Of a DNA stretch of 64,000 bases, positions 15,723-52,761 are shown piece after piece. The DNA is from Rhododendron vialii. Taxonomy: Eukaryota > Streptophyta > Magnoliopsida > Ericales > Ericaceae. The stretch lies in the NCBI RefSeq assembly GCF_030253575.1, contig NC_080557.1, positions 45,336,501-45,400,500 on the forward strand, read 5' to 3'. The position numbers and the translations under genes were made by a program. The notes under the pieces were generated by a model, which searched no databases, was not told where the DNA came from, and saw only the letters and a program-made list of their open reading frames with translations. The stretch's first letter is position 1. Every line of letters begins with the position of its first letter.

Positions 15723-15723
<1 letters not shown>

Positions 15724-15756: not shown

Positions 15757-15760
<4 letters not shown>

Positions 15761-15869
15761 GTCTGCAACTGAAACAGGGAAACGATATGACTTTCTGTGT
15801 GAGCAGTTTGACATTGAAACAGGGGACAGAGTCGAAGGATTGAATTGGGCCTTAGATAGGAGTCTATGA

Positions 15870-27481: not shown

Positions 27482-27670
27482 TTTTTGCCCCCAATTTCTC
27501 CGAGTACCCGTCTGGCCGTCTCTGTTTTCCCCCGGTGTTAGGAATCGGGAATTTTTGTTGTCGGCGGCGGGAGTAGATCGGCGGGTAGGGCTTGAAAATA
27601 TTTTGGTCCGGTTGGCGCGCGGAACCCTTTGTTTGGGCCTAATGTAACAAGGCCCAACTAGGTATACTTA
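27482..27670 (-). promoter_or_regulatory. Leader and proximal promoter of the NHL gene
   Basis: GC-richer sequence upstream of the ATG at 27481, including CGCCGCCGACAA-type text on the minus strand around 27560-27570. It is limited upstream by the MITE at 27671. No TATA box is obvious. Confidence 0.35.
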
Positions 27671-28161: not shown

Positions 28162-28823
28162 TAAAGGGTTTTTTCATCCAAATTTTGGACAAGCTAAATG
28201 GATGGAATATTAAGGGAAAAAAATAGAATAACATGTATAAAGAATGAGGAGAGAGGAACTAGAAACAGAAATGCAAGAGATGATGACGAGGTAATAAACA
28301 TGCTACCTTAAGACCTATATCTATGAAACATGCTTTCATATTCTGGTTTATGATTTGATTCTTAACATGTATGTGCCTAATTTCAAGACATCCTTTCCAA
28401 TTTTCACCATCCGCTTTGAAGCTTTCCCTCCCTCCCCCTCCTAGCGAGTCCCCTCTCTTCTTAGTGTTGATGGTGCAACTGATTTCATAGACATTGATCT
28501 TTTGTGGGACTCAGGGGTGTATGTGTTTCTTATTATTGACAAATGCATCTCCATTTTCTTCAAAACATCAATCCGAGAAACGCATACAGAATTACACTTT
28601 TTCACTATCTTTATAATTTTTATTATCCGCGCTTTCCTCTTCGTCGTTCACTCTTTGAAACCATGCCCCATAATTCACAAAGTTATTTGTCAACAATTAC
28701 AGAATGTAAGGCTGGTGCTCATGAAGTTTCAAGTGAGCCCAATTCACAAGCAAACCAAGTGGCTAATTAAGTGAAACACTGTATAATCTCTATTTGAAAA
28801 GTTTGTTTAGTTGGTAGGGTAGT
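28162..28823. other. Intergenic DNA, no supported gene
   Basis: Mixed-composition DNA with short chance open frames around 28500-28770 that overlap each other and lack splice or homology support. Confidence 0.4.
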
Positions 28824-32070: not shown

Positions 32071-32171
32071 TCGTTTAGTTTAGTAAAATGACCACTCCAT
32101 TGGAGGATGCTGGCAGTACTTTGAGAGAATATTGATATATTATGTACTTACCGACGAAACACACACCAACT

Positions 32172-32257
32172 GGGGTGGTGGCGCAGTTGGCTAGCGCGTA
32201 GGTCTCATAGCTTTCTGAGTAATCCTGAGGTCGAGAGTTCGAGCCTCTCTCACCCCA
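32172..32257 (+). tRNA. tRNA-Met (CAT), elongator, with a 12-nt intron
   Basis: The 86 bases fold as a cloverleaf: acceptor stem GGGGTGG with TCACCCC, D arm GCGC...GCGC, anticodon loop CTCATAA after removing about 12 bases (GCTTTCTGAGTA) placed one base 3' of the anticodon, T arm GAGAG-TTCGAGC-CTCTC, discriminator A. Removing the intron gives the normal 74 nt. A and B boxes are intact, and a TTTTT terminator follows at 32264-32268. Introns in plant genes for elongator tRNA-Met are well known. The gene lies about 290 bp upstream of the NSN1 start codon on the same strand. Confidence 0.95.
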
Positions 32258-32323
32258 ATCATCTTTTTGCTGAACAAACTCCGGGTCAACCCATACCCGC
32301 CCCACATTATCACTCGTCATCTG

Positions 32324-32333: not shown

Positions 32334-32545
32334 ACCCCAACTCCTCCTCTGAGTACTCTCTCCCAAACCCTACTTCATCCGCCCTTCTTTCTGCAACACC
32401 ATATACTCTTTTCTCTCTCCTGTTTTCCCAGGTATGCCGCTTGATTTCCTCTATTGTTTTATCGATTGCTCCAATCAGAGTTATAAAGATCAAGAACTTG
32501 ATTTTTTGTTTATTTTCCAGATAATTCTGTCGTTTACAATCAAAG

Positions 32546-35500
32546 ATGGTGAAGAAGAGCAAAAGTACGTAACTCACCGGCTCTGTATGACTGTATCTAC
32601 CCATTCGTGTAGTGTCAACCCCTTGTGTTTGTGGAAATTGAAAAATGGTTCATTTTCTTTTTGCAGAGAGCAAGAGTAAGAGAGTTACGTTGAAACAAAA
32701 GCACAAGGTGATAAGGAAGGTGAAGGAGCACCACAAGAAGAAGGCCAAGGAGGCCAAAAAGCTGGGCTTGAACAAAAGGCCCAAGGTCGAGAAAGACCCC
32801 GGGATTCCCAATGACTGGCCTTTTAAGGAACAAGAGCTCAAGGCCCTGGAAGCCCGGCGTGCTCGCGTAATCGAGGATTTGGAGCAGAAGAAAGCAGCCC
32901 GTAAGGAGAGGGTATGGTCTTGGATTTCATATCTTTTGGTGGTTATGTGTTGAATTGATATGTTGTGGACCTGTTGTATTCTGCTGTCTGAGTTGTGTTG
33001 CATGTGTTCATTTCTATGAAAATATTGGTGCAAGGAGATTTTTGAAATATGGGAATGGTTTGATAAGACCACCCATGGAGAGAAATATTCACTTCGAGCA
33101 TCATGTTTGTATACTCTTGCTAATTACTTCCAAGTTGTTTCTTCCTCAAGTTCGATGCTGTAACTTGCTTGCACGTACTTATGTGCTTTGAAGTGTCGCG
33201 TTCTAATTAAACAAGACGTTGTTAAATGGTAGTTTCTTGGTCAATTTATGAGAACTGAACGATCAATTGTCATTTTGAAGGTCAGATGAAGTTCTCAATT
33301 GCTGCTTTCTGACCATTTTTCCTTGCTTTTTTGGGGGAAAGGAGGAAATATGGACTGGAGATTGAGGCGTATTACTCGTCTTGGAGCCTTCACTCCATAT
33401 TTGTTCTTTAAAGGCTTTTGGATCCATTGTAGTAGGGAAGTGACCAATGAAAGTATTTCAAAGGAGAGTCTGCGACTTTCTAGTTAAATACCTAAGTTTT
33501 TGATGAGTCTTGTGTTGGTTTAGCAGATAAGAGAAACTTGGAATTTCGGAATCTAGTTGATCTTTTACTTGATAGTTTTTGCATTGGCTGATAACTCCCC
33601 TAGGACTTTGGGCTTCTAGAACTTTTATCTGTTTATGCACCCTAATATGCATGAAACGGCATTCTGCTTCTGTTTGTAAATTTTGTTCTCATCTGTGTTT
33701 GCTTTGGACTATAACTGTTTGATATGCAGATGAATACAACGTATGTTGCAGTGAGGTTGGCTTACTACTTTTGTGGTGTCTGATTCATTTTCTTCTCTGT
33801 GTTCTCTATGGACTTCTGTTTTCATAATTTCTTTTTGGGTATATATTGTTTTGGATAACTTCAGAGAACATTATTTTAGCCGGTGTGATTAATTATGAGT
33901 TTTGCTGCCTTTTCAGGCTAAAAAGAGAAAGTTGGGTTTATTGGAGGATGGTGGTGATGATATTTCTAAACTGGGTGATATAGCTTCTGCAAAAGAGCAA
34001 AATTTCATAGAGGGCAGGGATGATGATGCTTTGACTTCTACTGGCAAGATTAGGGGTATTTTACTTTTTATAATGCCTGGAACTTGCATTCTGGATGGAA
34101 AATGGTACTGTTGTGTCTGTCTTTTTTCCTATATTTTCTTTAACTGTCTTCATTGGAATTATTTTGTACAGAAAACTCAGAGAGGGCTTTCTACAAGGAG
34201 TTGGTCAAAGTCATTGAAGCATCAGATGTCATTGTGGAAGTTTTAGATGCTCGAGATCCGCTTGGTACCCGCTGTGTCGACATGGAAAGGATGGTGCTCA
34301 AATCAGGTGCTGATAAGCATCTTGTGTTGCTTCTTAATAAAATAGGTAATGACTCTCTCTCTCTCTCTCTAACCACCACCACCACCCACCCACCACCACA
34401 CATAGACACACATGCGCGTGCGGAGGGTGTGATTGATAAGTTTCACATGATTGTGGGGTTTTGTTTGACAAACTTGACAAACAAAACCTCTATCTCAAAG
34501 AGGAGCTGGACTGCATGGCCAAAATGATGAAGATGATTTCTAACCATAAAAAACAGTTACGAGTCTTATGACATAAAACTTAAAAATTGAACACATCAAA
34601 TACTTGATATTTGGCCTGTTTTCACAATCTGTTTCTTCATGGTGGTACGGGTCCTGAACTTTTATTGGCTCATAGTCTTCTGACCATGGTTTAGTCTGAG
34701 TCTGCTTGGTTTGACATTTAGCTTAATATTTATTTGGCTCTCAGATCTTGTGCCGAGAGAAGCTGTTGAAAAATGGCTCAAGTATCTTAGGGAGGAGTTA
34801 CCTGCAGTAGCCTTTAAGTGCAGCACCCAGGAGCAAAAGTCAAACTTGGGATGGAAATCTGCCAAGGCTGCAAAAAAATCCAGCAATCTCCTGCAAACCA
34901 GTGACTGTCTTGGAGCTGAAACTCTTATTAAATTGCTAAAGAATTATTCAAGAAGCCACGAGGTACATCTAAATTGCATGTGGAGTTTTCTTAAATAGAA
35001 TTTGAAATCAGTTCCTTGATGGTTGGAGTCTGTTGGACTTCTGAATAGAAGTACACATCTTGGTTGTTTTCGTGTAAGTTATCAAGATGCTGAATAGGTT
35101 ATGAATAAAACAATCGAGAAAAACCTAAATTTCTTTTTGAGAAGACTGGAGCAGTCACAATTGCCCCACCCCTCTCAAATAAAAGGTTCTGTCCATACTT
35201 TCAGAATAATTGCACACAATAAATTTTGGTTGGCTACACTTGTAACTCAGGATTGTGTTTTATTTGTGAACTCTATCCTGTAAATAGTTTTGCATCTTAC
35301 AGATACGCTGTACATAGTTTATATTTTGGTGTGTGGTGCGCTTTTTACTTGATTTTGATTTATTTGATGTGAGATCCTAACCTTCTGACTTCTTTTGCAT
35401 GATTCTTGTAGTTTTTTTTTTTTTTTTTGGCGCATCAACATTTGATCTGATTGATTGGAAATTTTGATGAGCCAGTTATCTTTGTTGATGACAGATCAAG

Positions 35501-37020
35501 AAGTCAATCACAGTGGGCGTTATTGGTCTTCCTAACGTTGGGAAGAGTAGCTTAATTAATAGCTTAAAGAGATGTCAGGTTGTCAATGTTGGCGCTACTC
35601 CGGGATTGACCAGATCAATGCAAGAAGTGCACTTAGACAAGAATATAAAACTACTGGATTGCCCAGGTGTTGTAATGCTTAGGTCTGGGGAGAATGAGGC
35701 ATCTGTTGCTCTTCGAAACTGCAAAAAGATCGAGAAACTAGAGGATCCAATGGGGCCAGGTAATTGTCTGTCTTTTACCCCATGATATTGCCATTTGGTC
35801 CCATTTCTGCCGAGTGAAAGACTTCGTTTTTTTACCGAGCTGCATGCTTCTTTGCTCTTGCTCTAGGACTTTGATTGGTTATGGCAACTCATTTTGTGGC
35901 TATTCTATTAATGGTGCAGTTAAGGAAATTCTCAAGCTTTGCCCAGCAAGAGTGTTGGTAGCACTGTACAAGCTCCCAAGCTTTGACTCAGTCGACGACT
36001 TCCTACAAAAAGTGGCCACCGTCAGGGGTAAGCTTAAAAAGGGTGGTATTGTGGATGTCGAATCTGCTGCGAGAATCGTCTTGCATGACTGGAATGAAGG
36101 TATTCATGATCAGGGAATTATCATTTTCTTTCTGTTTATAAGAGTGCTCAACACCAAGGTTGACACAAAGCCTTCTTGCTTTCTTTGTTCTTTTCCCAGG
36201 TAAAATCCCATATTATACGATGCCTCCAACTAGGAATCAGGAAGAACCGTCAGAAGCAAAAATTGTTTCAGAGCTTGGAAAGGAGTTCAATATTGACGAG
36301 ATTTACAGCAGCGAGTCTTCATTTATTGGGAGCCTTAAATCTTTCGACGATGTAAAACATGTTGAAGTACCTTCAAATTGCCCTCTAAATTTCAATGAGC
36401 AGATGCTCGAGGTTTGTGATTATCTTGAAGACATTGTATGTTTCCTTAGGCCATGTTTGGATCTTCGATTTGTTGTGGGAAAGAAAAATGACAAGAAAAC
36501 CATAAGTAAATTTAGATTCTTGGACTTTGTTATCTTCTCCAATTTTCCTATACTCTTTCCTCTCCGTGAATTCCTCCATAAATTCAAATCCAAGCGCATT
36601 AGCGGGGATCCTAATGTTGACTCTGGTCTCTGGTTCACCTTGCAGGATGATGTAAAGCAACAACCCTCGAATCAAGGCAATGATTTGGTCAATGATGGTG
36701 ACGACGAGCCCATGGGATCTGAAGAAGATGTTGCAGCAGCTGAGGTTAAGGCCAAAAATGCTGGTAGGAGGCAGAATGAGAAGCTGTATGATGCGGCAGG
36801 CATACTCAACACAAAGTTGATGAGAGCAGAGAAGAAGAGGCGGAAGAAAGCCAATAAATCAAGTGGTGATGCCATGGAGGATGATGAAGATTACGATTTC
36901 AAGGTGGATTATGTCAAGAAAGGTTCCGCCATGGATGATGGTGAGGAGAATGAGGAAGCTGGTGGTAGCAATCAAACGAGATATGAGGTGCTTGCTTCTG
37001 GAGTTGAGATTGATGAGTAG
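32546..37020 (+). CDS. NSN1: Nucleostemin-like GTPase 1, circularly permuted, 608 aa
   Basis: Nine exons (32546-32564, 32667-32911, 33917-34055, 34172-34345, 34745-34962, 35495-35759, 35920-36099, 36200-36411, 36646-37020) join to 609 codons. A leader intron probably spans 32432-32520. The N-terminus (MVKKSKKSKSKR) is very basic, typical of the nucleolar GNL3 domain. The GTPase motifs are in circularly permuted order: G4 NKID at 190-193, then G1 GLPNVGKS at 276-283, G2 around Thr 300, G3 DCPG at 320-323. The C-terminus is acidic with a Lys/Arg-rich patch ([11 protein letters not shown]) and ends VEIDE. The family acts in the nucleolus in 60S subunit maturation. The last intron (36412-36645) is 234 nt, a multiple of three, and contains no in-frame stop. 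A partial copy lies at 47050-48343. From memory, the Arabidopsis gene is At3g07050. Confidence 0.95.
34351..34371 (+). repeat. CT microsatellite in an NSN1 intron
   Basis: A short CT run followed by ACC/CAC-rich text in the intron between 34345 and 34745. Confidence 0.7.
36449..36598. mobile_element. Possible Tourist-like MITE filling the last NSN1 intron
   Basis: TTA (36446-36448) precedes GGCCATGTTTGGATC, and AAATCCAAGCGCA precedes TTA (36599-36601). The ends are partly inverted (TTGGAT core). The same sequence is in the duplicate copy near 47800-47960, so the insertion is older than the duplication. The end repeats are imperfect, hence the moderate confidence. Confidence 0.45.
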
Positions 37021-37943
37021 AAGAAATACACTGGCAACAATATTGGCGAGTTTTTTTTCACCCTGCAATTTTCAGCGTTTTTTTTTTTTTTCACCCTGCA
37101 ATTTTGATATCTGTAAGTTATTGAATCTGAGATCAGTGAAGACTTTGAAATGTTTAGTATGCATTCTGCAAGGATGGTATTCAACTAGTACTTTTTTGCT
37201 TATTGGCTACTTTGGATGCCTCTCTCTCTCTCTCTCTCTACCCTTTAGCTGATGGCGCCAAAACAGAGAGGCGTATCTCTATGCAAAAGGAGCACTTAAG
37301 AGACACACATACACCACAGTGCGAGGTTAACATCAGTTTGGAAAATCATCTTCGCTAAGCCCCCAGCAAAAAATCATACACGAATTTATTAGGCTTTTGA
37401 CTTGAAGTAAATGAAATCTTCAAATACCGTTTCATATCTTGATACATTCAAGGTGTAGCTCAAATTGTTACCTTAGGTTGTGTGTTGGATCATGGTGATT
37501 TGCGCGGACATTTACCAAGGAAAAAAGAAAAGATAGAAGTTACGCAAAGGTTACATCGAGCCTGCAGTCATTGCTTGTGAGATCAAACCCAAGATGACTA
37601 CGATCAACGATAAACACCACAAAACTGTCATAATTTTAACTTAAGCAAGAAAATCATGCTCCATTGGACTCAACTGTGAAAGCAGAATATTTTATAAAGA
37701 AATCATGTACCATTCGACTTCACCTTGAAATCCTAAAAATTTCCAAGAACCTCATCTCCAACGTAGAATAGAGTGTCACCGGTTGCACCGAGCAATGAAA
37801 ACTGACCTGAATCATTACAGACAATGATACATGTCACAAAAATGGTTCAACTCACACAAGCGTACACAACCAAGATTCGCAAAGCCAATGCCGTACGATC
37901 ACAAGTTGAGTATCGCTGGAGGTAACAAAGGGAGATGGAACCA

Positions 37944-38803
37944 TCAGTCATCATCTGATACCCCTTCAAGTGGATCGTTCTCAGTGGGATTAGTATCTTC
38001 TTTCATGTCGACATCAGGGGCGCTCGAGCTGGTTGAGGGTGGTGAGATTGCTGAAGTGACTCAACGGTAACTGAGGACGAATTTGTAGTAGCATCAACAT
38101 CACTAACAACTGATACCTCTGCCATGGAAGGCTTGGGAATGAGATTTTGTGCTTCCATGGCTTCACACGCTACCTTCTCTTTGGCTCTTTTGGCTCTCTC
38201 TAATACATCCTCGTGCATATGGCTCATAGAATTTCAGGATTTTTGCCTTTTTCTGTACAAAGCAGTGCACAACAAAATCAATGCAGTGAACAAAGAAAAG
38301 ATGACGGCGTTTGACTCCTGGAATTCTGAGGCATTCATACAAAGAAACCAACAGATAAGAACATAATGAAGAGTCGTCCAACTAAATAGGCTGGACTTCC
38401 CTTAGTATCTGAGTTCCAAAACTCTGTTTTCCAGCTAATAGCTACCTTTTGTCCTCATGGCCCTCATCCAACATGAAACTTACATATTTTACGTTCTTAC
38501 TTTTTCCGGGCTGGGAGGACTTCTCCCAACTCTGGAACCATGTTGATGCTTAGTGATAATGACCCTTAAAAGTAAAAAAAAAAAAGAAGAAGCACGAAAC
38601 CAAATTGAGTTAGATGTGCAATAACCTACTGGAACTACTTGTTAGTACCTGGAAGTCCTGCACTTGCTTTTGCTGCTCAGCTTGCAATCTACAAAGTGTA
38701 CTAAAAAACTCCCCTACTGCAGACTCAACACGCTCAATAACTGCTTCTGCTTGGGCCTTCCCAAAGAAAAACGTATCCAGAACACTCCTGCTGTCGCCCT
38801 CGC
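37944..38803 (-). pseudogene. Broken copy of the small plastid-protein gene
   Basis: Matches exons 2 and 3 of the intact gene at 49256-52008. Exon 2 (38803-38649) is open and has its splice sites. Before exon 3 (from 38212) the acceptor TGCAG has become TGCAC. Within exon 3 one base is missing near 38060 compared with the intact copy, so the frame ends early. Exon 1, with the transit peptide, is absent because the duplication stops in intron 1. It could be transcribed but should not make the normal protein. Confidence 0.85.
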
Positions 38804-38951
38804 CTGCAAAATCCAGTACCCATTTCAGCACATATAAATAATAAAAGAGGAAAGTTCTTACACATCCCTTGGTAGAATTGAGAGACTAATCAATAGAACA
38901 AAGATGTGAGTCCTTGCCCGAGTGCAGAACCAACAAACAATTAGCCAAATG

Positions 38952-39360
38952 AAGCGGTTTTATGGTGACCTATGCTGGGTATACTCTTTTAAAAATGCAA
39001 TGGTATGAACATTAGAAGAACCTCAATAGAGAGAGGTAGGAGTCCATTTAAAAGGTACAATTGCTTACTAATCCCTATACTGTGTGGCCAAAAAAGAGTA
39101 TTTGGACTAATTTTCAAGTGTCTTTTTTTCCCTAACAATTAACTTCTTCAATGATTTTGAGAAGTAAGAAAATCAGCCCATGATTTCCACATCAGAATTA
39201 AAGAAGGCACGTGGCACAAACCTGCTTCAATATCGCCGAGAGACTTTCACTCTTGCATCTGAATTTTCTATCCAAACAATGTGTGCATTTGGATCTGCAA
39301 GGAAAATTGTAAGGTGGTTACGTCAGTTATGTGAAGTACTGAAATTCAGTAATGACTATT
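38952..39360. other. Unique DNA right of the left duplication copy
   Basis: AT-rich sequence with no supported gene. It begins exactly where similarity to the right copy ends. Confidence 0.45.
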
Positions 39361-39364
39361 GAGA

Positions 39365-39450
39365 AACAAACACAATTACAAGACTTGAACCCATGACCTC
39401 TGAACCCGAGCAGAGCTCTAATATCTGAATGACGCCATATATTAGGTAAC
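39365..39450 (-). mobile_element. Possible tRNA-derived SINE relic
   Basis: On the minus strand, TTAGAGCTCTGCTCGGGTTC and AGGTCATGGGTTCAAGTC resemble the anticodon-to-T-arm half of a tRNA, with a B box GGTTCAAGTC. The A box is poor and no target duplication was seen. Confidence 0.3.
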
Positions 39451-39963
39451 AATTTCCGAAAAGATTTGAGGTATTAGGAAAGGGACCAACAATGTATATC
39501 ACACTAACAGCTACAAACATCGATTAGATCAATCACCCCATTTCACATTGGATGTTCCCTTATTAGCCACTGTTGTTCTCTATTAATTGAATGAATAGGG
39601 GGAAAACCTTTCTTATGAAACAAAGATTTGCGGCAACAACAGGAGCTCTTTAGTACTGTTGTTCTTTTCAATATTCTGCATCAGTTATCTAGGGCAGATT
39701 GTATGTTTGATCACTTCAGATTGCTTGTGCAGATAGAAGGAGAAACTAAGGGCATCACTATTTTTACCTTGCGTCATTCTGAACTCTTTTCTGATATGCC
39801 TCAACTTGAGCTTCATGTTACTCAATCAACCATTGCCCATTGTAGCCTCGCATACTTCTGAACAGAACAATATATTGTGGCCACTAAGGGACCAAGGACA
39901 ATCCTTGAACGAAATGCTCTAAGAGGAGCTGGTAAAAAGGAAATCCAACAAACATTAACAAAA

Positions 39964-40870
39964 TCAAAACGGGGATGCCATCCAGTGAGCAGCACAATTT
40001 GTTTCTCTGGGAACCCATAAAATGAAGAGACAAAGACCAGTTGCAAGTGTCTTGATATCTTGAATAATAACTCTGCATTCCCATGGAGGGACCAGCTCAG
40101 AGACACACAAAGTGATCAGGTGTTTGTTGTCATTCTCCACCTGGATGCCTGAGAGATGAAGAGCTTTTCCCATAAGACATGCTTTGCGGAGGGCTAGAGC
40201 TTCACAGGACAAAGCCGAGGGTCCTGAGATACTGACTCTTCTGCCATCAAGAAGCATGCCTGTATGATTGCAAACTACTATTCCCGAAAATCCCGAATGT
40301 GAACCAGCATTCCACGACGCATCGCAGTTGATCTTTATAGAGCCAGAAGGAGTAGGACTCCAAGCAGAAACAGGATTAGAGGCCCTGGAGTGAGGCTTCA
40401 GTAAGGATTTATCAGGATTAAGTGCTTTAGACATCTCCCTTCAAAGCCCATCAGCTAGGATAGCTACCGAGGAAGCTATGGGGGTGCAGTTTTGGAAAAC
40501 CATATCATTCCTAGCTCTCCATATACACCAGCAGATAACAGCCACTTTGCTCAGGCTCTCGCTAGAAAACTCCGGGTTGCTAGTGCCCAAGCTTTGAGCT
40601 GAAGGCCAATGTAAAACAGAGGATAAAATACCAAAATGGCCAAGGATGTTAGGGAAGCCCTTCTGTTAAACCAACTTGGTCCAATTGCAATGAGAGAGGC
40701 TCAACCGATTTGACCTCCTTACAGCATATTGGACACAAGGGGGATATAGAGCATTTCCTCTTGGAAAAGATTTTTCTTAACCGCCAACAGCTTACTGCAA
40801 ACCCTACACCAGGAATGCTGCACTTTGAGATTCCAAATAAGTTTCCATAGGCTTGCATACTTGATCTATT
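39964..40870 (-). mobile_element. LINE (L1-type) fragment: zinc-binding RT domain and RNase H
   Basis: On the minus strand, 40858-40650 encodes CRVCSKLLAVKK-like and CPICCKEVKSVEPL text typical of the zf-RVT domain when frame changes are allowed. 40500-39964 encodes an RNase H domain (SIKINCDASWNAGSHSGFSG, then SCEALALRKAC, IQVENDNKHLI, WVPRETNCAAHWMAS). The order zf-RVT then RNase H is that of the C-terminal half of plant L1 ORF2. The copy is 5'-truncated and interrupted by stops, for example just upstream of REMSKALNPDK, so it is dead. Confidence 0.85.
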
Positions 40871-41375
40871 CTTTATCTTATCGAGATGAAGCTTGAAATA
40901 TTCTGAATAATGTGGTTTGACATAAAACTTTGATTATAGTATTCATTAAAATTTCAGAGCACAAGTGCCATAAAGGATCCATTAAACCACATTTCAATTT
41001 CAGAAGTTTAAAGTATTTCCGTATTGTTTGTTTTTCACTCTCTTTGTGTTTTCTCATGCAAAAATTTTAGCACTTGAGGCTTAGGATAAGCATGGTTCGA
41101 TCAAGTAAACTCTCTCATTCATCCAAGAAGTTCCAAGTCATATGAACCTCTATTGCCCTGAAAACTTCGGATGAAAGAATCATAGACCGAAAAAACGACT
41201 TCCTTCAGAAGCCAAATGTCAAACACGTGGGAGGCATACACCTTACATCAATTTCTAATACCGTAAGCCGTATAAAATCAAAATCCGCAAAGATATTAGA
41301 ATGTACGCTAATAGAAATTGAATTAGATGCAACAATCAACAACCCACTGTACCTTAAACACCTCTATCGGCTGAC

Positions 41376-41455
41376 TCAGTGATCGGAACTCGGATCGGCG
41401 GCGGTTATAACGGACGGCGACCACAAGGCAGGAGGAAAAAAAGTCTTGCGGGTTA
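41376..41455 (-). pseudogene. Short copy of the exon-like sequence at 46742-46969
   Basis: Shares GGAACTCGGATCGGCGGCGG and GGTTATAACGGAC...GACCACAAG with 46745-46860 but lacks about 24 bases in between. It is too short to judge alone and may be the remnant of a duplicated first exon. Confidence 0.4.
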
Positions 41456-41870
41456 TAATCAAGTGTGCCCAGCTTTCTTTTTTTCATTTTTTTTCGAGAT
41501 ATATCTTCTGTGATTAAATACCAGTAGCTATTCGATCGACTTGATATTCAACCAAACTATTCTAATAAACAAGATCTACAATTTGGACGAATCCGATCAT
41601 CAAATCGATTCCCAAATAAGGTAGAAAATTGCAAAAAAAATTGTAACCAAACTCACCCTTTATAAGGTTATAATCAAGTGTGCCCAGCTCTATTTTTTTT
41701 CATTTTTTTTGAAATATTTCTTCACCGATTATATATCCATAGGTATCCAATGAACTTGATAATTCACAAGATTAATGAAAAGGACAATTTATACAATGTG
41801 GACGAATAGGATGATCCAAGAAATTCCGAAAAAGTTCGAAAATTGCCAAAAAGGGAAAGACGCTTACTTC
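41452..41870 (+). repeat. Two tandem copies of an about 210-bp unit
   Basis: GGTTATAATCAAGTGTGCCC begins both copies (about 41453 and 41668). Each continues with AGCT, a T-rich tract, then a diverged match including TTGATA...CAC/CAA and GTGGACGAAT/TTGGACGAAT. Confidence 0.75.
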
Positions 41871-42024
41871 TTGACACTTGGCCATGAGAAGTGTAACTCG
41901 TGTTTTGTATACCCGCGTCTCGGACGTCTTTCAAAACGCGAGCTTTCCTAAACCCCGGACTCGCATCTACAAGACGCGCGTTTTGTCAGACCTTAACTTC
42001 GCATGTTCAACTTGCAATGTTATT

Positions 42025-42478
42025 CCTAAACAGATTCCACCCTTAGAGCCCCAATTTTCATGTCTTTTCGAACGTATTTTAATAATCGATACTGTTTACA
42101 TTTTAGAAGACTTTGATTTTATCAATCGTGAAAAAAATTAGTTTAATCGGATATCAATTGATGCACTTTCGCAACACATCTATATAGTGGAATATTGGAA
42201 CGAATAAAGTGTGAAACACTGAATCGGATCCTATTTTCGAAAAACAAAATAAAATCACTCTCCTAAACGAATTTCTACATTTTTAGACCCAATTTGCATG
42301 CCTTTCCGGACGTTTTTCAATAATCGAGACTGTTTAAGTTTTACAACGCTTTAATTTCATCAATCTAGGAAAAAATTAGATCCATCCGATATCGTTTGGT
42401 AAATTTTCTCAACACATTCATATTGTGGAATATTGGAAGAATTTTAAGTGTGAAACACTGAATCGCAACCTATTTTTG
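42025..42478 (+). repeat. Two tandem copies of an about 240-bp unit
   Basis: Both copies (about 42030-42240 and 42270-42478) share TAATCGATACTGTTTA / TAATCGAGACTGTTTA, a TTATCAATC/TTCATCAATC block, AACACATC/AACACATTC, GTGGAATATTGGAA and GTGTGAAACACTGAATCG. Confidence 0.8.
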
Positions 42479-43149
42479 ATTCTTTCTGGCGCCTCCGTAA
42501 CGCTATTCTCTATTTAATTGCTGCCCATTAACTGTTTGATGAAATGTCTCGCTCACTTCAACTCCAGTTAGAAGTAATGGGATTATGCTTTGTTATGTGC
42601 AGACATTGCCGCCATTGGAAGGTGCTCACAGGGACCACGGCAAAGAACCGCAAAAGGGATGAATTTGGTGTCCCTACTTGACCAGATTGTTGGGCTTTGT
42701 TTAAGTTAATGCTTTGATCTTCAAATGGATGAAAGTTCCTTTCCAGTATATATGTTGAGGTCCATTTGACCATTAGTATCTTTGGTTCAGTTCATTGTTT
42801 TGCCTGTGTTTACTGGTTTACATCATTGGGTGGTTTGGGTCTTTTGACTTTGGACTACACAGTCAGCTCTTCTTGGTGAAACATATCTTTGTTTGTTCAA
42901 GTCTACCTTCCCCTCTACCTATTGGCTGCTACGGTACTACCCGGTCTTGGATAGCATTTTCTTGATTTATACAAGACAGCATTTCCTTGATTTATACTTC
43001 CTATTTCTGTGTTGATGTATGCTTCTATTGCTCCCATGATCCCTGGAATGATGTGTGCTGCTGCAACTGGTCTGCTTCTCTTATGCTACTGCTGCTACTT
43101 TCTGGGGTGCTGCTATTATTCTAGTCTGCTTTTTGGTTCTACAAATGCT

Positions 43150-43556
43150 GATTCTTGGACTGTCTTCTACTGAAGACTAATCTGGTTTCTACTGAATTTT
43201 GTTCTGGCATTATCTGGCTTTGCTGTCTCACATTCCTTCTTTCCCCTTCGCCCAGCCCGGTGGAAAAACCAAGCATTAAAATGGGAAGGCGATCAGTGCC
43301 GTCAAAGAGGAAGCTGAATTCTTGTGTCTCCTCTGAGTTGGTTATTCATAGTGGAAGTGCGGCTTCAAGGACCATCTACCAAATGGAGGCAAATTTCGGG
43401 TTATTAGCTGGGAATTGTCGAATGGGTTTATTTTGGTTACTTGTATCAGCAATCTCTTTTAGTTTTTCTCAGTTAACTTCTTGTCTTAGTCCCTTTAATC
43501 ATTGTACCTCCTACATTTAATGAATAAATTCTTTTTTGCCGTTCAAAAAAAAAACG
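43150..43556 (+). mobile_element. LINE-like 3' end with A tail
   Basis: The segment ends TTTAATGAATAAATTC, then TTTTTTGCCGTTC and ten A. The same GCCGTTC-A(n) terminus occurs in the 19-nt insertion at 23607-23625. Its left limit is unclear and could lie as far back as 42500. No reverse transcriptase is left in it. Confidence 0.5.
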
Positions 43557-43699
43557 CAATTCAACAATTGTGCATTTGAAATTCCTGGACAGTGATACAT
43601 TTGTGCACGTTAGGTCCATTCATTAGTTCTTGAAGCTGGATCTCTCTCCCCCGGGTGAACATAGCCAAGAGAAACCATTTAAACGAATAAAATGCAGCA

Positions 43700-43966
43700 C
43701 AAGTTCAAGACCAAAACAAAACCAGGCGTCCATATATAGCAATAGCAGATACAAAAAAGAACTCGCTCGCCAAGCTGGCGACGGGACCTGTGACCAAAAG
43801 TCTTAACAAGTGAAGTAGCAGTCACTGACCCAAGGCCCTTTGCTACAGGAAGATGTGCAAGGATTAAGTGGTCAGGACATGCAACTGTAATAGTTTCCAC
43901 TGGCACGGTCTTTCCCCCAGAGGCCTCTTCTACGGATTGAACGTTTCTAAGCCAGATCTGAAGCAG
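43700..43966 (-). pseudogene. Fragment of a HAKAI-like E3 ubiquitin ligase gene
   Basis: The minus strand encodes LLQIWLRNVQSVEEASGGK, VPVETITVACPDHLILAHLP, VAKGLGSVTATSLVKTFG and RRSRRQLGERVLFC, matching the N-terminus of plant HAKAI, the RING-type ligase linked to mRNA m6A methylation. At the expected start the family's ATG is CTG. After GERVLFC the family continues RCDFPIAIYGRL; here AIAIYGRL appears in another frame, so codons for about five residues are lost with a frameshift. The RING cysteines do not follow. It is a dead partial copy. The intact gene is not in the window. Confidence 0.75.
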
Positions 43967-43969
43967 CTT

Positions 43970-45235
43970 CAAAGAACTGATTCCCCTTTTTCACTCTGCC
44001 AACCGGGGAAAAAAAAATCAGCCTCAAGCCTTCTAATGAGGCAGTGCTAAAGGATAAAAAACAAGACATTTAATCAAAGATATAAAATTTCTTAAAAATC
44101 AAAATCAACTGTATCTCCAACAACAGAACTACAGCATGTGTTTCCTAGATACTGCCAGCCAAGACATTGTTTTGGATTTGATCCTCCTAAGCATGTCACT
44201 AGCAATATTCATACTATCCATAGCAGAGGAATTGTAAAGCTTCCACACCTAGGGTAAATGAAAACGAGCAGTTAACACTATTGTGGGTACCTTTCCACTG
44301 ACTCTAGTACTCACCCTAACATAGCAGAAAATACATTTCAAGACCCAACAACCCACACTTTCGACTAGAGCAGAAAGGAATTTCATACTGAACCTGAATA
44401 ACCTAATCCACTACGTTAGGTGACAGATGGCAACGTGCTTCACGTATTGGATTCACTGGAGCGAATTCAGAGGGAACTTCCGCTTTCCAGGCACCAAAAC
44501 ACATCATACTGGTATGCACATCCCAATCCCCGCTTATTCTGGAAAGTTCATTTCATGCAGAAACCGCCAAAATAAGAAGGACGAAGGCAATGCCTTGAAA
44601 AATCCTCAACACCTCTCACAAACCTACCACACTACCCAAGAGAATACAGAGAAGGAAAACCAGAACGAACCTATGCCACTAAGACTATGAAAACAGTTCA
44701 AAGATAACCAGAAAAGAGTAAGCAAAATTGAACAATTACCCTTGAGTAATCCTCCTCCCAATATTGTTTTTGAGTTCCTATGAAAAGCTCTGGACAAGTC
44801 CTGATACTCCTTTGTCGTATTATTCTCTTCACAAAGCTCTACCTTCCAATAGAGCAGAGCCAAAAAAATTATGTTAGGGGGGTCTAAAATATATTCATAT
44901 GCAAGTTATTTTTCAAGTTGTTAATCCAATGAAATAACTAAATTAAGACATTAATTATAAGGAAGATATACTGTGAGAAATATAATTTTGCTTTACAATC
45001 GGCCCCAAGGATAGTGTATGTTGAAAACAATGCATCATAGCCTCATTCGTAATGGTATGAACTCTTGAAGAGATGAGAATGCTTGAAATTTCAATGCATT
45101 TAAAGCAAGTAGGGGCAATTTAGAAATTATTTTGAGGGGTCAATATAACAAAATTTGGCTACAAACTATCAAATATCCTTGTGTGAGAAATAAGAGTGAG
45201 TGGGTCAAGTGACCCCACTTGTATCTTAGTCCCTC
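43970..45235. other. Region without a supported gene
   Basis: Contains the 5'-flank-like sequence of the HAKAI fragment and mixed AT-rich DNA. Some short frames (for example on the minus strand near 44130-44250, reading WKLYNSSAMDSMNIASDMLR) could be exon or transposon relics, but I cannot name them. Confidence 0.35.
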
Positions 45236-45239
45236 TGCC

Positions 45240-45634
45240 CCTGATATCCTGCACAAGATTCCCAATAACCTCAGCATACCTCTGATCGAAAATTCTAGAG
45301 TTCCTTTCTCTCCACCGGTAGTAGACAGCTAGACAGTCAATTTGAAGATCAGGACTTTTACTGAATTTCCTTGTGCATGGAGCACAACCCCATTCATTAT
45401 AGCTATAAACCTCTCAGGAAGATCCAAGATAGTCCCTTTGGTTAGAGCTATCAAGAGAAGTGACACTTCAAAAAAAAGGCAGTCAGTACTCTCTTTAGTA
45501 TCACTGCATAGCACAAAACTAGAATTTGCTGCAACACCCCCAACTAGACAATCTACTCTAGCGGCAAGTCTCCCTTGAAAGAACATCCACTGTATAAAGG
45601 ACCATCTAGGGGTACGGTGTGGAAACCACTTCAA
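45240..45634 (-). mobile_element. LINE (L1-type) fragment: zf-RVT end and linker
   Basis: The minus strand reads KWFPHRTPRWSFIQWMFFQG, RLAARVDCL and STDCLFFEVSLL, then after a break YYRWRERNSRIFDQRY. This is the usual layout just after the reverse transcriptase in plant L1 elements. It is a separate piece from 39964-40870, in the same orientation. Confidence 0.7.
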
Positions 45635-45676
45635 TTAAAATATGGTATCGGAATGTTGATACGGAAAACCTAAAAA

Positions 45677-46378
45677 TGTTGTTGTGTGGCCCGTGATCCT
45701 CGATCTTTTCCTCCGTTGGTGGCTTGATGGTTGCTGAGACTTCTTCTCCTAGCCTGCACAGGGAGCGCACGACTAAGACCTGGCCGGGTTGCCCGGCAAG
45801 GCCCTCCAGCGAGAGGATAAGTATGTGTAGGAAGAAAGGGAAGAGACTTAGGGTTTGAGTGGGTAATCGTGTGTATGAGTGCGTACCTCTTTTAGGGTTG
45901 CCATCCTTTAATATTTATAGAGTCTCCTTAGCTTGCTCTCCAAGTACAGGCATGTGCCTTGCACGGGCTAGGCGATGTCACTGTAGCGTCATAGCATAGA
46001 TCTGGTAACCGTTTTGGCATGAGCTGGCACACCCCATGTGCGTTCATCATTATCTTTTGGCATAACCGCTTTTGTCACGTGAAGGGCTATATGACCCAGA
46101 AGGTGGCCGAGCCTTATATACAGCCGAACCCCGTTATTTGGCCGAACCTGGTATACAGCTGAGCCCGATGGGCGGCACGAGTGAGGAATACGTCCACAAG
46201 TACGCCACTGACGGTGGCCGAACTTGCACTTCATACTGAGACAAAGCTCTCTTCAAGGATCTTCCCCATGGATGAATCCCGGCCAGTAGCCGAGCCCAAT
46301 TCAGGCACGGTAGTGGCGGTCGGCTGCGGATGGTTGCGTTCGGCCTGCCACAGTTGTGCATGTATATCCATAATAACA
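45677..46378 (-). mobile_element. Probable solo LTR, about 0.7 kb
   Basis: On the minus strand the segment starts TGTTATTATGG and ends ACACAACAACA (TG...CA). A good TATA box (CTATAAATA) lies near 45920-45930, where an LTR promoter would be. It is GC-richer than its surroundings, with repeated GGCCGAAC-type words. No internal region or clear target duplication was found, so the family is undecided. Fossil. Confidence 0.45.
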
Positions 46379-46741
46379 TCTTTTAGTTCTGTTAAGGAAA
46401 ACATCTTTTCATTTGAATGAATGCTTCTATGTACTGAAACAACAAATCAAATGAAGAAAATCAGTGACTTAACCTACAACGGATAAGACCAAAAGTAAGG
46501 TATAAACCATAGCTTCACGTCAATGCAATTAATCCTACCGTACAACCTTGATTTTAAAAGCATTCTAAAAGCATAGAAAGAAGTGTCATCAAGTTGCCTT
46601 CTTCTTTCTACAAAAAAAAAAAAAATACTGTTACTGGCTTTGTTCTATACCAGGATACGACATACAGAAATTTAAGAAAAGAAAGTTAGGCAATCACGTA
46701 TGCAAAGTATTAGTGGGGTGTCCAAAGTAAATCAACCGTAT

Positions 46742-46969
46742 ACCTGCTCAGTGATTGGAACTCAGATCAGCGGCGGTGAAGGTCGACTTGGATTTGCAAC
46801 GGTTATAACGGACTGAGACCACAAGCCTTCGAGGGAAAAAAAAAAAGTCTTTTCCGGTTGTGGGAGTGTCTATAGAATTTGGAGGAGGTGGGTGTATTGT
46901 ACAAAGAGAGGTGAAGAGGAGACTTGTCGCTATGGCTGCATTCAATTTGCAGTGACTGTTTTGGTGCAA
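46742..46969 (-). pseudogene. First-exon-like sequence of an unidentified plastid-protein gene
   Basis: The minus strand reads NAAIATSLLFTSLCTIHPPP, then RRLVVSVRYNRCKSK and TFTAADLSSN, which looks like a transit peptide of a nuclear gene for a plastid protein. It is followed by CAG and a GTATAC donor-like site. There is no ATG at the expected place and a stop precedes the donor. No downstream exons were found to its left. A shorter relative lies at 41376-41455. Confidence 0.45.
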
Positions 46970-47049
46970 TGCTGCAACTTACTCTTTAATCTGCTGCTGC
47001 AATAATGGTTTTACTAATGTGAGATGTTCTTTTGGTCATGACCTAAAAT

Positions 47050-48343
47050 GGTCTGGGGAGAATGAGGCATCTGTTGCTCTTCGAAACTGCAAAAAGATCG
47101 AGAAACTAGAGGATCCGATGGGGCTAGGTAATTGTCTGTCTTTTATCCCATGATATTGACTTTGTTTTTTTACTGAGCTGGATGCTTCTTTGCTCTCGCT
47201 CTAGGACTTTGATTGGTTATGGCAACTCATCTTGTGGCTATTCTATTAATGGTGCAGTCAAGGAAATTCTCAAGCTTTGCCCTGCAAGAGTGTTGGTAGC
47301 ATTGTACAAGCTCCCAAGCTTTGACTCAGTCGACTTCCTAAAAAAAGTGGCCACTGTCAGGGGTAAGCTTAAAAAGGGTGGTATTGTGGATGTTGAATCT
47401 GCTGCGAGAAAATCGTCTTGCATGACTGGAATGAAGGTATTCATGATCAGGGAATTATCATTTTCTTTCTGTTTATAAGAGAACCAAATAAAAGGAGCTC
47501 AATACCAAGTTGACACAAAGCCTTCTTGCTTTCTTTGTTCTTTTCCCAAGTAAAATCCCATACTATACGATGCCTCCAACTAGGAATCAAGAAGAACAGT
47601 CAGAATCAAAAATCTTTTCAGAACTCGGAAAGGAGTTCAATATTGACGAGATTTACAGCAGCGAGTATTCATTTATTGGGAGCCTTAAATCTTTCGATGA
47701 TGTAAAACATGTTGAAGGACCTCCAAATTGCCCTCTAAATTTCGATGAGCAGATGCTCAAGGTTTGTGATTATCTCGAAAACATTGATTTTGTGTCCTTA
47801 GGCCATGTTGGATCTTCGATTTATTGTGGGAAAGAAAAATGATGAGAAAACCATAAGTGAATTTAGCTTCTTTGACTTTACTATCTTCTCCTATTTTCCT
47901 ATACCTTCTCTTTCCTCTCCCTGAATTCCTCCTATAAACTCAAATCCAAGCGCATTAGTGGGAATCCTCTGTTGACTCTGGTCTCTGGTTCACGTGCCAA
48001 GATGATGTAAAGCAACAACCCTCAAATCAAGGCAATGATTTGGTCAACGATGGTGAGTCGGTGACAACGAGCCCATGGTATCTGAAGAAGATGTTGCAGA
48101 AACTGTATGACGCAGTAGGCATACTCAACTCGAAGTTGATGACAGCAGAGAAGAAGAGGCGGAAGAAAGCCAATAAATCAAGTGGTGATGCCATGGAGCT
48201 AGGATGATGATGATTACGAGTTCAAGGTGGATAATGTCAAGAGAGGTTCTGCCATGGAAGATGGTGAGGAGAATGAGGAAACTGGTGGTAGCAATCAAAC
48301 GAGATTTGAGGTGCTTGCCTCTGGAGTTGAGATTGATGAGTAG
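47050..48343 (+). pseudogene. NSN1 partial copy, 5'-truncated
   Basis: Corresponds to NSN1 from the middle of exon 6 to the stop: about 47050-47127 (exon 6 end), 47258-47436 (exon 7), 47550-47761 (exon 8) and about 47998-48343 (exon 9). The N-terminal basic domain, NKID and P-loop motifs are absent. Exon 7 has two extra bases (GCGAGAAAATC against GCGAGAATC). The exon 8 acceptor CCCAG has become CCCAA. The exon 9 acceptor is also lost, and exon 9 has internal deletions. The piece cannot make a GTPase. Confidence 0.92.
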
Positions 48344-50361
48344 AAGGAATACACTGGCAACATTACATATTGGCGAGTTTATTTTTATCCTTCCACCCTG
48401 CAATTTTGATATCTGTAAGTTATTGAATCTGAGATCAGTGAAGACTTTGAAATGCTTACTAGTATGCATTCTGCAAGGATGGTATTCAACTAGTAGTACT
48501 TTTTTGCTTATTGACTAGTACTCTCTCTCTCTCTCTCTCTCAGACACGCGGGCGCACAATTCTACCCTTTAGCTGATGGCGCCAAAACCGAGAGGCGTAT
48601 CTCTATGAAAAAGCAGCACTTAAGAGACACACATACACCACAGTGCGAGGTTAACATCTGTTTGGAAAATCATCTTCACTAAGCACCCAGCAAAAAACCA
48701 TACACGAATTTATTAGGCTGTCGACTCTAAGTAAAAGAAATCTTCAAATACCGTTTCATATCTTGATACATTCAACGCGTAGTGCAAATTCTTACCTTAG
48801 GTTGTGTGTTAGATCATGGTGATTTGCGCGGAGATTTACCAAGGAAAAAGGAAATGATATAAGTTCCGCAAAGGTTACATTGAGCCTGCAGTCGTTGCTT
48901 GTGAGATTAAACCCAAGATGACTACGATAAATGCCACAAAACTGTCATAAATTTAACTGTGTTTCAGAGCAAAAAAATCATGCTCCATTGGACTCAAACT
49001 GTGAAATCAGAAAATTTTACAAAGACATCATGTCCCATTGGACTTCACCTTGAAATACTAAAAATTTCCAAGAACCTCATCTCCAACGTAGAACAGAGTG
49101 TCACCGGTTGCACCAGGCAATGAAAACTGACCTGAATCATTACAGACAATGATACATGTCACAAAAATGGTTCAACTCACACGAGCGTACACAACCAAGA
49201 TTCACAAAGATCACAAGTTGAGTATCACTGGAGGTAACAAAGGGAGATGGAACCATCAGTCATTATCTGATACCCCTTCAAGTGGATCGTTCTCAGTGGG
49301 ATTAGTATCTTCTTTCGTCTCGACATCGGGGGTGCTCGAGCTGGATGACGGTGGTGAGATTGCTGAAGCGACTGCAACGGTAACTGAGGCTGAATTTGTA
49401 GTAGTATCAACATCACTAACAACCGATACCTCTGCCGTGGAGGGCTTGGGAGTAAGACTTTGTGCTTCCATGGCTTCATGCGCTGCCTTCTCTTTGGCTC
49501 TTTTGGCTCTCTCTAATACATCCTCCTGCATATGGTCATATAATTACAGGATTTTCGCTTTTTTCTGTACAAAGCAGCGCACAACAAAATCTATGCTGTG
49601 AACAAAGAAAAGATGGACGGTGTTTGGCTCCTGGAATTGCGAGGCATTCATCCAAAGAAAGCAAAAGATAAGAACATAATGAAGAGTCGTCCAACTAAAT
49701 AGGCTGGACTCCCCTTAGTATCTAAATTCCAAAACTCTGTTATACAGCTAGTAGCCAGTTTTTGGCCTCATGGCCCTCATCCAACATGAAACTTACATAT
49801 TTTACATATTTACTTTTTTTCAGGCGGGGATGACTTCTCTCGACTCTGGAACCTCTTTGAAGCTAATTGGTAGCGGGTGTTTAGAAACCTTTATATGCTT
49901 TTCAAAATACCAAAGACAGCTTAATGGGACCTTTTTTTGGCTGAACTTTGGAACCATGTTGAAGCTAAGTGATAATGACCCTTAAAAGTAAAAAATAAAT
50001 AAAAGCACGAAACCAAATCGAGTTAGATGTGCAATAACCTACTCGAACTACTTGTTAGTACCTGGAAGTCCTGCACTTGCTTTTGCTGCTCAGCTTGTAA
50101 TCTACCAAGTGCACTAAAAAACTCCCCTACTGCAGACTCAACACGCTCATTAACTGCTTCTGCTAGGGCCTTCCCCAAGAAAAACGCATCCAGAACACTC
50201 CTGCTGTCGCTCTCGCCTGCAAAATCCAGTACCCATTTCAGCACAAAAATAATAAAAGAGGAAAGTTCTTACACATCCCTTGGTCAAATTGTGAGACTAG
50301 TCAATAGAACAAAGGTGTGAGTCCTGCCCAAGTGCAGAACCAACAAACAATTAGCCAAATG
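47050..50361. repeat. Segmental duplication, right copy
   Basis: Partner of 35682-38951, in the same orientation. The space between the two copies (38952-47049) is about 8.1 kb. Confidence 0.93.
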
Positions 50362-52008
50362 GAACTTCCCCCCACCCTAGGGAAAACGACCACCAAACCG
50401 GCTAATTCTCTATGAACCTTCACCAAACATTCCCACCCAACCAAAACTGAACCAAACCAAAGTAAGGCTTGTGTCCCATCAAGTGTGGTCAGCGACTAAA
50501 CAATTATTCTGTGAACTCGTAAAACCAATGGTGATGGTAGCTGAAGAGAGAAATATTGGAAACGCCCTGAAAACACAATTATCAAGGGGGGAAAACAGAA
50601 GCAGCAAGAAATGCTATAGCCCAGACTTGGCTGCAATTCGACAACTGATTATTTTCACTTTTAGCTATGAAGTTGGGTTATAATGAGAAAGAGATACCCG
50701 GAGAGAGATGCCAAAACATTTTGAAACAAAAGAAATGTCGCCAAAACTAAAAGCAGCAAGAAATGCTTTTGACCTTCAAAGCACAAAACAGGATATATTT
50801 GTATAACTAGCAAAGATGAATAATCACGATTGTCATAAAATATAATGCAGATATGGGATGGATGAGTCTACACAATACATGGGAGCTCAAGCAACAATTT
50901 TATCAACTTGAGTTGCTACAAATTGACAAGGAATGGAGTCTGCATTCACCAAACACTTGATCCCAAAATCAGATTGCAACATAGAAGAATAAGAAATGAT
51001 ACTCTCTTCATACCTCGACTGCTTGAAGACATTCAAGCATAATATTCAAAACCAACCGTAATTTCACTTATGTTATGATAGTTGTCATCTTATGGGATTT
51101 AACAAATAAATGTAACTTCTTCACTCTCACTATGTTTCTATCTTCCTCTATGCCTCTAAAAATCCCACAACTAACCCATGATCCAAACAGCTACTAAACA
51201 TATGCTTTTAGCAGCATTAAGACTCCATATATCCTCCACCAATGATCCCAGTCGCAATTCTCCGCTGATACCAACTCATGACTAAACCAGTACAAGTGCT
51301 ATCATGGATGCCAAACAAACAAATGCCCTATCTTCATGAGATGCCAAATAGAAGAATAGAACTTGTATAATATCCTCAAAGGGGGAGGCTGAGGCATTCC
51401 AATAATCTGAAGCTCTCTTGACCCAGTATTCCAACTCATACATGAAGTACAACTGAACTAAGTCGAATACTGGTTCCATTCTTACAAGTAAAAGAAAGTC
51501 CCGCATAACACGTTGACGGATTAAATCTTCATAGACAGTAATCACTGTCAAATAATGTGGGAAACTACAACTACAAGTACAAAGTGAAGCAAACTGCCAA
51601 ATTGACAGTTCTTTCAGAAACCCACGTCATAATACACGCAGAATTAGTCTAAAACCCTCTTCAAATTTCAAACCCAATTCATTTCAAACAATATGCACGT
51701 ATACAGATTTTACACTGACACAGAAATGGTATTAGCTAGTAGTACTTACCAGGGCCAGGAGCCCCTGGTCCTGTGCTGCTATTGCACCTAAAGCAGATAG
51801 TATTTGATAAAACTCCCCCAAATCTTGTTGATCTGACCTTTAGAGACGAAGAAGAGAAGGGAATATTCTCAAATGAAAGACAAGGAGGGGTAACAGCTGA
51901 GGGGACCCATGATGGATTGGGACAAGGGTTTTTGTGGGTGATTGATGGGATTCGAGAATATGTCGTTGATGGTGGTGGGGATGCCGAAAATCCCCCGACA
52001 GTCATCAT
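49256..52008 (-). CDS. Predicted plastid protein of unknown function, 227 aa, intact copy
   Basis: Three minus-strand exons (52008-51750, 50216-50062, 49525-49256) join to 228 codons. Residues 1 to about 75 are rich in Ser, Thr and Pro with few acids (MMTVGGFSASPPPSTTYSRI) and look like a plastid transit peptide. The conserved core (about 88-170, ESDSRSVLDAFFLGKALAEA through QAEQQKQVQDFQEDVLERAK) is predicted helical and coiled-coil, from AEAVNERVESAVGEF on. The tail is Ser-, Thr- and acid-rich and ends VSDND. There is no transmembrane helix in the core. I recognise it as a conserved plant protein but cannot name its family with confidence. It is tail-to-tail with the NSN1 pseudogene, as the broken left copy is with NSN1 itself. 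Confidence 0.82.
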
Positions 52009-52761
52009 TTCCTATGCGTTTCCACCACCGGTCCTTTCCTTCCCTCTCACTCTAGATTGGGTCACACCGACACAGAACAAAGGGTTGGTGAAAGAAGCCG
52101 GATTCGTATGGGAGAAATTTCTCCGTACCGGGTATAGTTGATGGTTAATAACGCCACCTGGTACTTGCGCATCTGAACCTTCTGTTGTACAGTATAGTCT
52201 GTTCCAATAATTCTAAATTACGAAAAAAAATATGTTCCGAAATTACCGGAAGATATAGCACAGGTACATATTCAAGGGATTTATTCCAAATTTGTATTAT
52301 TGATTTATCTTTTTGGTGTAATTTCGGAATATATTTTCTATGTGCAAAGGAAAAAAAAAAAAAAAAACTGTTATATCTGGTCCAATTAGTTTGCCTCCTA
52401 TTTTATTTTAATTGAATATAAAATAGGAGTATTCTTTTAGCTGATAATCATTTTGATATATAATGTGAATCTTATCTAATGTATTTTATAGTTTCACTTA
52501 AAAACTCTTGAGAATCACAGAAAAATTTGCAAATTAAAAGATATAAGAAATTTAAAAGTGACAAGAACTCTCATAGAGGACTACTAAATTGGGATGGATG
52601 TGGAGTAGTAATCTTTTGGTATTCTTCCATCGAGCAATATGGGAAGACAATTTGTCAACGATGAAAATAAGACGATGTTATATTCTCCAAAGAGCTTTAT
52701 GTTTCTTTTGAAAAATATTGTCAACCCATTCGGAAGGTTAATGATAACGGTCTTTCTACTG
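52009..52761. other. Promoter side of the plastid-protein gene and AT-rich DNA
   Basis: The first about 150 bases are the probable leader and promoter of the minus-strand gene. An A(18) run lies near 52350-52367. No other gene is supported. Confidence 0.4.

Follow-up and report, generated by a model that had tools for sequence, protein, structure and literature searches.

How can a genome come to hold the same two neighbouring genes twice, with one of them whole and the other broken in the first copy, and the reverse in the second? This question is raised by a locus of Rhododendron vialii that we analysed within a 64,000-nucleotide stretch of DNA (the window, positions 45336501-45400500 of contig C1), with genome searches covering the 532.6-Mb assembly in its 13 sequences. 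The two genes, one for an NSN1-type GTPase and one for a protein of the DUF6825 family, are convergent, and a first-pass annotation had proposed that a 3.3-kb unit covering their 3' ends is present twice. Indeed, self-BLAST and global alignment agree on such a unit. The answer that we consider clearly probable is a tandem partial duplication with breakpoints in NSN1 and in the DUF6825 gene, whose inner ends were joined via a mosaic spacer.

Copy 1 of the unit (35682-38951, plus strand, 3270 bp) runs from the last 78 bp of NSN1 exon 6 to exon 9, through the convergent interval, and over exons 3 and 2 and part of intron 1 of the DUF6825 gene. Copy 2 (47050-50361, plus strand, 3312 bp) lies in direct orientation and differs from copy 1 by 6.8% and 30 indel events. 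Self-BLAST returned the repeat in two segments, 35682-38558 with 47050-49872 (86.6% identity counting gaps, E=0) and 38528-38951 with 49944-50361 (93.2% identity), and the edges were set by global alignment, the sequences outside them being unrelated to each other. The unit starts at base 188 of the 265 in NSN1 exon 6 and ends inside DUF6825 intron 1. As in a partial tandem duplication, both copies have the same orientation at one locus and the segment ends within both genes, but the copies do not directly abut, 8098 bp lying between them. Over the whole unit, 212 of 3136 aligned bases differ (Kimura two-parameter distance 0.071). Divergence ranges from 4.1% to 8.8% in ten 300-bp windows over 35682-38681, with 15 of 267 bases differing in the last stretch, and because it is spread along the unit, we see no sign of recent gene conversion between the copies in their sequences. 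When the first 1001 bp of the unit were searched against the assembly, the two matches listed were these two copies. An assembly artefact, with two haplotypes or a misjoin set in tandem, is hardly credible as the source of the repeat: allelic copies would both have both genes whole, and the 6.8% difference with its 30 indels, the disabling lesions in the partial copies and the unrelated sequence past the edges all speak against it.

On the left, NSN1 is whole: the gene (32546-37020, plus strand) encodes 608 amino acids in nine exons (32546-32564, 32667-32911, 33917-34055, 34172-34345, 34745-34962, 35495-35759, 35920-36099, 36200-36411 and 36646-37020), with GT-AG at all introns and Pfam matches to GN3L_Grn1 (3.7e-17) and MMR_HSR1 (2.7e-18). 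On the right, the whole gene is that for the DUF6825 protein (49256-52008, minus strand; exons 52008-51750, 50216-50062 and 49525-49256; 227 amino acids), which matches Pfam PF20711 at 4.3e-34. It had earlier been called a plastid gene; the family was found in only one of 14 control genomes, that of Synechococcus elongatus, which is in keeping with a plastid-type protein. The partner of each whole gene is a damaged 3' fragment. The NSN1 fragment in copy 2 (47050-48343, plus strand) is without exons 1-5 and most of exon 6, and it carries a 3-bp loss and frame-shifting indels of 2, 8, 44 and 4 bp; at exons 8 and 9 the acceptor AG is shifted by one base. The DUF6825 fragment in copy 1 (37944-38951, minus strand) has no exon 1; its exon-3 acceptor is changed from AG to AC, with an alternative AG three bases on, and exon 3 contains a single 1-bp frameshift. 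Gene models and lesions thus bear out the arrangement described in the first-pass annotation, namely NSN1 whole and the plastid gene broken on the left and the reverse on the right. The further proposal that decay had removed only the redundant parts does not hold, as the fragments, with their frameshifts and changed splice acceptors, are damaged yet still in place.

Does this arrangement call for reciprocal gene loss, as had been suggested? Whenever a tandem duplication breaks inside two genes, the left gene stays whole on the left and the right gene on the right, in any orientation of the genes. Since the pattern is forced by breakpoint geometry, the label of reciprocal gene loss does not fit and no selection is needed. 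According to excerpts of PMC8042742, the term refers to different copies being lost in different genotypes; the locus resembles such divergent resolution in having one intact and one broken copy per gene, but differs in that it lies in a single genome and its pattern was set by the breakpoints. Because the genes are convergent, only promoterless 3' ends were copied. The two 3' fragments face away from each other across the inner junction, 5' end to 5' end, and each whole gene retains about 2 kb of native downstream sequence within its own unit copy. From stop to stop, the genes lie 0.92 kb apart within copy 1 (37020 to 37944), compared to 12.2 kb between both whole genes. The earlier estimate that the plastid gene had been moved about 11 kb from NSN1 is therefore right as a distance (11.3 kb gained), but 8.1 kb of the gain is the spacer at 38952-47049, which is not part of the unit and had been left unexplained. 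The idea that partial coverage of each gene by the unit was enough to make two complete-partial pairs is the best reading, given that the spacer lacks the missing 5' parts and that a search of the assembly matched the DUF6825 5' half (50362-52200) at one place only.

In terms of mechanism, the 3.3-kb stretch over the convergent 3' ends would have been duplicated in tandem during illegitimate (non-homologous) repair or replication, one breakpoint lying in NSN1 exon 6 and the other in DUF6825 intron 1. The full genes would automatically survive on the outer sides, the promoterless inner 3' fragments would decay as pseudogene pieces, and an 8.1-kb mosaic, made of broken repeats with one low-copy gene fragment related to contig C5, would link the inner ends. 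The unit, its edges, the identity of the whole copies, the lesions and the mosaic spacer are all read directly from the comparisons, and from them we infer that the duplication was tandem and partial from birth, the filler arriving then or soon after and being followed by later repeat insertions. A tandem partial origin is favoured by the sharp edges inside both genes, the lack of remnants in the spacer and the absence of long homology at the junctions. The DUF6825 substitutions and the like non-coding divergence of the unit and the C5 gene fragment, both given below, also speak for it.

An alternative would be that a larger duplication copied both genes whole, and that later deletion and patching removed the 5' parts of DUF6825 copy 1 and NSN1 copy 2. 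The sequence between the units has clearly been reworked, as this would require, and the substitutions in the coding parts also have to be considered here. A comparison of the units by Ks and indels, which had been suggested with the first-pass annotation, gave the 30 indel events mentioned above together with a Ks of 0.135 for the NSN1 3' pair (22 nonsynonymous and 20 synonymous changes in 262 codons; Ka 0.036, Ka/Ks 0.27) and of 0.078 for the DUF6825 pair (21 and 7 changes in 139 codons; Ka 0.068). Expected numbers of amino-acid changes were derived from the non-coding rate, with w0 denoting the share of such changes accepted by the intact lineage. For the DUF6825 pair, the 21 changes gave P values of 0.11 at w0=0.2 and 0.025 at w0=0, so that its divergence is compatible with one neutral copy, provided that the intact lineage accepted some changes. 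For the NSN1 pair, with one neutral lineage, the 22 changes gave a P value of 0.31 at w0=0 and 0.08 at 0.2.

Two features of the NSN1 pair count against a duplication that was partial from birth: at w0>=0.3 the 22 amino-acid changes fall below expectation (P 0.03 at w0=0.3), and the synonymous changes are somewhat over expectation (P 0.044). Early constraint on NSN1 copy 2, and hence a once-complete second NSN1 rather than one born as a dead fragment, may lie behind such a signal. The Ka/Ks of 0.27 likewise hints at constraint during part of the pair's history. The signal is not significant, however, if few changes were accepted in the intact lineage (P 0.31 at w0=0, as given above), and the history with two whole copies requires one extra event, a deletion that stopped inside both genes. 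Furthermore, neither DUF6825 exon 1, nor the NSN1 5' half, nor any trace of the outer flanks was found in the spacer when it was compared with the whole window at a sensitive setting (E up to 1e-3). We therefore regard whole copies trimmed afterwards as improbable.

The fragments might also have been kept for a function, in that an overlap in cis was turned into one in trans through antisense copies of the other gene's 3' end in read-through tails. The geometry would permit this, as the DUF6825 fragment lies antisense downstream of NSN1 in copy 1 and the reverse applies in copy 2. Both fragments nevertheless carry frame lesions, the divergence of the DUF6825 pair is close to that predicted if one copy is free of selection, and the ancestral convergent pair already had the same potential, so we give the idea very little credence. 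A literature search for convergent gene pairs with partial duplicates and antisense effects returned nothing on the topic, as judged by titles and the beginnings of abstracts.

If a tandem partial duplication made the two copies, what lies between them? The spacer (38952-47049, 8098 bp, no strand assigned) is pieced together from broken dispersed sequences and resembles neither outer flank, as seen in comparisons with the genome and with the window; the whole-genome search listed 47 matches, with the best 40 of 1083 candidates scored. At its left end, a dispersed piece on the plus strand (38949-39642) has relatives on C8 and twice on C12, about 17% different, and is cut at the unit edge. It is followed by a LINE-like piece on the minus strand (39988-41304), which differs by 11.5% (140/1222) from a copy on C2, its relative among the matches listed, and in which an open frame at 39964-40440 contains an RNase-H-type domain (Pfam RVT_3). 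Positions 41040-42479 match C5, with parts also on C2 and C12. The low-copy gene fragment then lies at 43037-44538 on the minus strand; its source is C5:39098625-39102239, and it has kept the first exon but lost most of the coding sequence, the non-coding parts being 8.0% different. We take the C5 gene to be a HAKAI-like E3 ligase, although domain searches did not confirm this: its two pieces matched no Pfam family, one of them gave only weak matches to zinc-finger proteins in the Protein Data Bank (best E 0.011), and the fragment in the spacer had no match in Pfam or the Protein Data Bank. With the two joined C5 pieces as query, three matches were listed: each of the two pieces at its place on C5, and in the spacer the part with the first exon. 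Two dispersed repeats come next, one at about 44850-45250 with at least 43 matches including its own place (best 40 of 196 candidates scored), and a putative solo-LTR-like (long terminal repeat) one at 45682-46352, without assigned strand, found in at least 33 other places (best 40 of 1083 candidates scored). Lastly, a 71-bp piece on the plus strand (46979-47049) is 87% identical to C5:11257714-11257784 and ends flush at the start of unit copy 2.

There is little or no homology at either join, as is typical of filler DNA and as read from the sequences. At the left junction, the unit and the C8/C12-type sequence share a 3-bp overlap, ATG, and the C8 relative of 38949-39642 runs about 535 bp further left than the join. 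At the right junction the 71-bp match stops at 47049 and the unit begins at 47050, with zero overlap. We prefer end joining or template switching with filler as the explanation for both joins. One observation weighs against filler acquired in this way: AAATG stands at both edges of the spacer (38947-38951 and 47046-47050), a pattern that a later insertion would leave if it duplicated a 5-bp target site. In that case, the units would first have been joined directly (CCAAATG followed at once by GTCTGGGG), and a single 8.1-kb element would have been inserted later, leaving the AAATG repeat on both sides. Such a history departs from a tandem duplication joined through a mosaic solely in when the spacer arose and what it is; our confidence in the two therefore overlaps, and we would call it unlikely but keep it as a rival. 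A 5-bp match is weak evidence, the pieces of the spacer differ in their divergence, its leftmost base already lies inside dispersed sequence whose C8 relative continues beyond the edge, and its right edge is the end of a match to another dispersed piece. Edge comparisons revealed no element ends at the spacer edges.

A further part of NSN1 is found on another contig. The 5' half of the gene (window 32470-34370, exons 1-4) is matched at C9:38017931-38020551, the match ending at a CT microsatellite in intron 4. The C9 half has kept its splice sites and an open frame, with no indel in 577 coding bases compared to 14 indel events in introns 1-3. It differs from the C1 gene by 8 nonsynonymous and 14 synonymous changes in 192 codons (Ka/Ks 0.14), which is fewer amino-acid changes than expected even with none in the C1 lineage (P 0.026). 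In Arabidopsis, residues 1-174 of NSN1 suffice for nucleolar targeting, according to the part of PMC4588883 that deals with it. Together with the constraint, this suggests that C9 may hold a kept short NSN1 or a late-truncated gene. In the 20 kb of C9 compared, the copy does not continue into spacer sequence.

The divergences of these pieces allow their ages to be compared. Non-coding positions differ at 142/1914 (7.4%) in the unit, at 91/1137 (8.0%) in the spacer's C5 gene fragment and at 78/1186 (6.6%) in the C9 introns of the NSN1 5' half relative to C1, and these values are not different (chi-square P 0.41). Not included in the test were 76 bases immediately before the C9 start codon, of which 16 differ (P 0.82 with them), and the stretches 41040-41354 and 41388-42476, the latter two because they also match C2 and C12. 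Adding the C2-matched piece (140/1222) rejects equal divergence (P 4e-5). The divergences of the pieces matched on C2, C8 and C12 (11.5-17%) date the families rather than their arrival in the spacer. Plant substitution rates lie between 2.5 and 7 per billion sites per year, and with these general figures K = 0.078 gives a rough bracket of about 6 to 16 million years.

This similarity of ages is open to an objection. The stretches 41040-41354 (37/305, 12.1%) and 41388-42476 (216/1072, 20.1%) match C5 a few kb past the match of the gene fragment and in the same order, and including them raises the divergence of the C5-derived part to 13.7%, at which the test rejects equal divergence (P 3e-15). 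Because both also match C2 and C12, we took them for dispersed repeats, but if they arrived with the gene fragment the like-age argument would be lost. A single multi-template rearrangement might have produced three pieces together, namely the tandem unit, the spacer's C5 fragment and the C9 half of NSN1. A second NSN1 would then have been divided, with its 3' half dead on C1 and its 5' half on C9 still maintained by selection as a short nucleolar protein; we regard this as a long shot.

Several other features of the window and the assembly were seen alongside the tandem unit. Just upstream of NSN1, window 32171-32258 was called as a tRNA gene with unclear anticodon, which by eye resembles an intron-containing tRNA-Met. 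At C6:24483127-24483312 lies a 186-bp fragment, 94% identical to window 34104-34289, which spans part of NSN1 intron 3 and exon 4. Window 28817-30656, perhaps to about 31530, is 96.7-97.1% identical to C8:797082-799000, where the compared C8 stretch ends; the region contains inverted repeats (29003-29193 and 31335-31529, 72%) and a 135-bp tandem repeat (30573-31145), ends about 1 kb upstream of NSN1, and is probably a young mobile element, judging from these features. It has no match in the C9 copy of NSN1, where an inverted copy of 28490-28712 abuts 32470. Window about 9600-12920 shows 69-83% identity to C13:5030593-5033803 in the same order, as a paralogous gene block more diverged than the unit. 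The inverted repeat 55724-56102 and 56428-56790 (85.6% over 382 columns) probably represents mobile-element arms; C12 and C9 carry similar stretches. A burst of such duplications nearby was considered and rejected, since no comparable copy was among the matches listed for two control stretches: for 8001-17000 (best 40 of 1764 candidates scored) and 18001-27500, no listed match was longer than 260 bp above 85% identity.

How does the locus compare with what is known? Partial duplicates are common among young duplicates in the excerpts of PMC3449122 and PMC5460883: the former, a review, puts the share of complete duplicates among young pairs at about 40-44% for worm and two flies, and 1004 of 1116 tandem duplications in D. 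yakuba captured genes or gene fragments in the latter. As in the small-scale tandem duplications described in these excerpts, the breakpoints lie within genes and leave one full and one truncated copy, the truncated ones often being dead. The Rhododendron locus is unlike the usual case outlined there in that both breakpoints lie in convergent genes, so that no promoter-bearing chimera arises, and in that its copies stand apart, with 8.1 kb of other sequence in the gap. For maize and rice, parts of PMC2686159 (maize p2/p1) and of the review PMC7407515, which cites Vaughn and Bennetzen (2014), describe filler and duplications where ends were joined illegitimately. The spacer resembles this plant filler DNA at double-strand-break repair junctions, as it appears in those parts, in its little or no homology, its mosaic make-up from several places and its association with a duplication. 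Unlike the fillers and insertions reported there, which range from 1 bp to about 1 kb and are mostly local, the interval is 8.1 kb long, one of its pieces stems from another contig, and later repeat insertions are probably part of it.

In summary, the locus is a new example of known processes, real and mostly ordinary: an ordinary partial duplication, made a little unusual by the 8 kb of scrap DNA between its copies. It offers a readable case in which a tandem duplication with breakpoints in two genes leaves both working, along with two dead 3' fragments that automatic annotation may call genes. It also warns that the pattern of one gene whole on the left and the other whole on the right is geometry, and not evidence for selection or reciprocal loss. 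Should the like divergence of the three pieces go back to one event, multi-template repair in a plant genome would have a natural example here.

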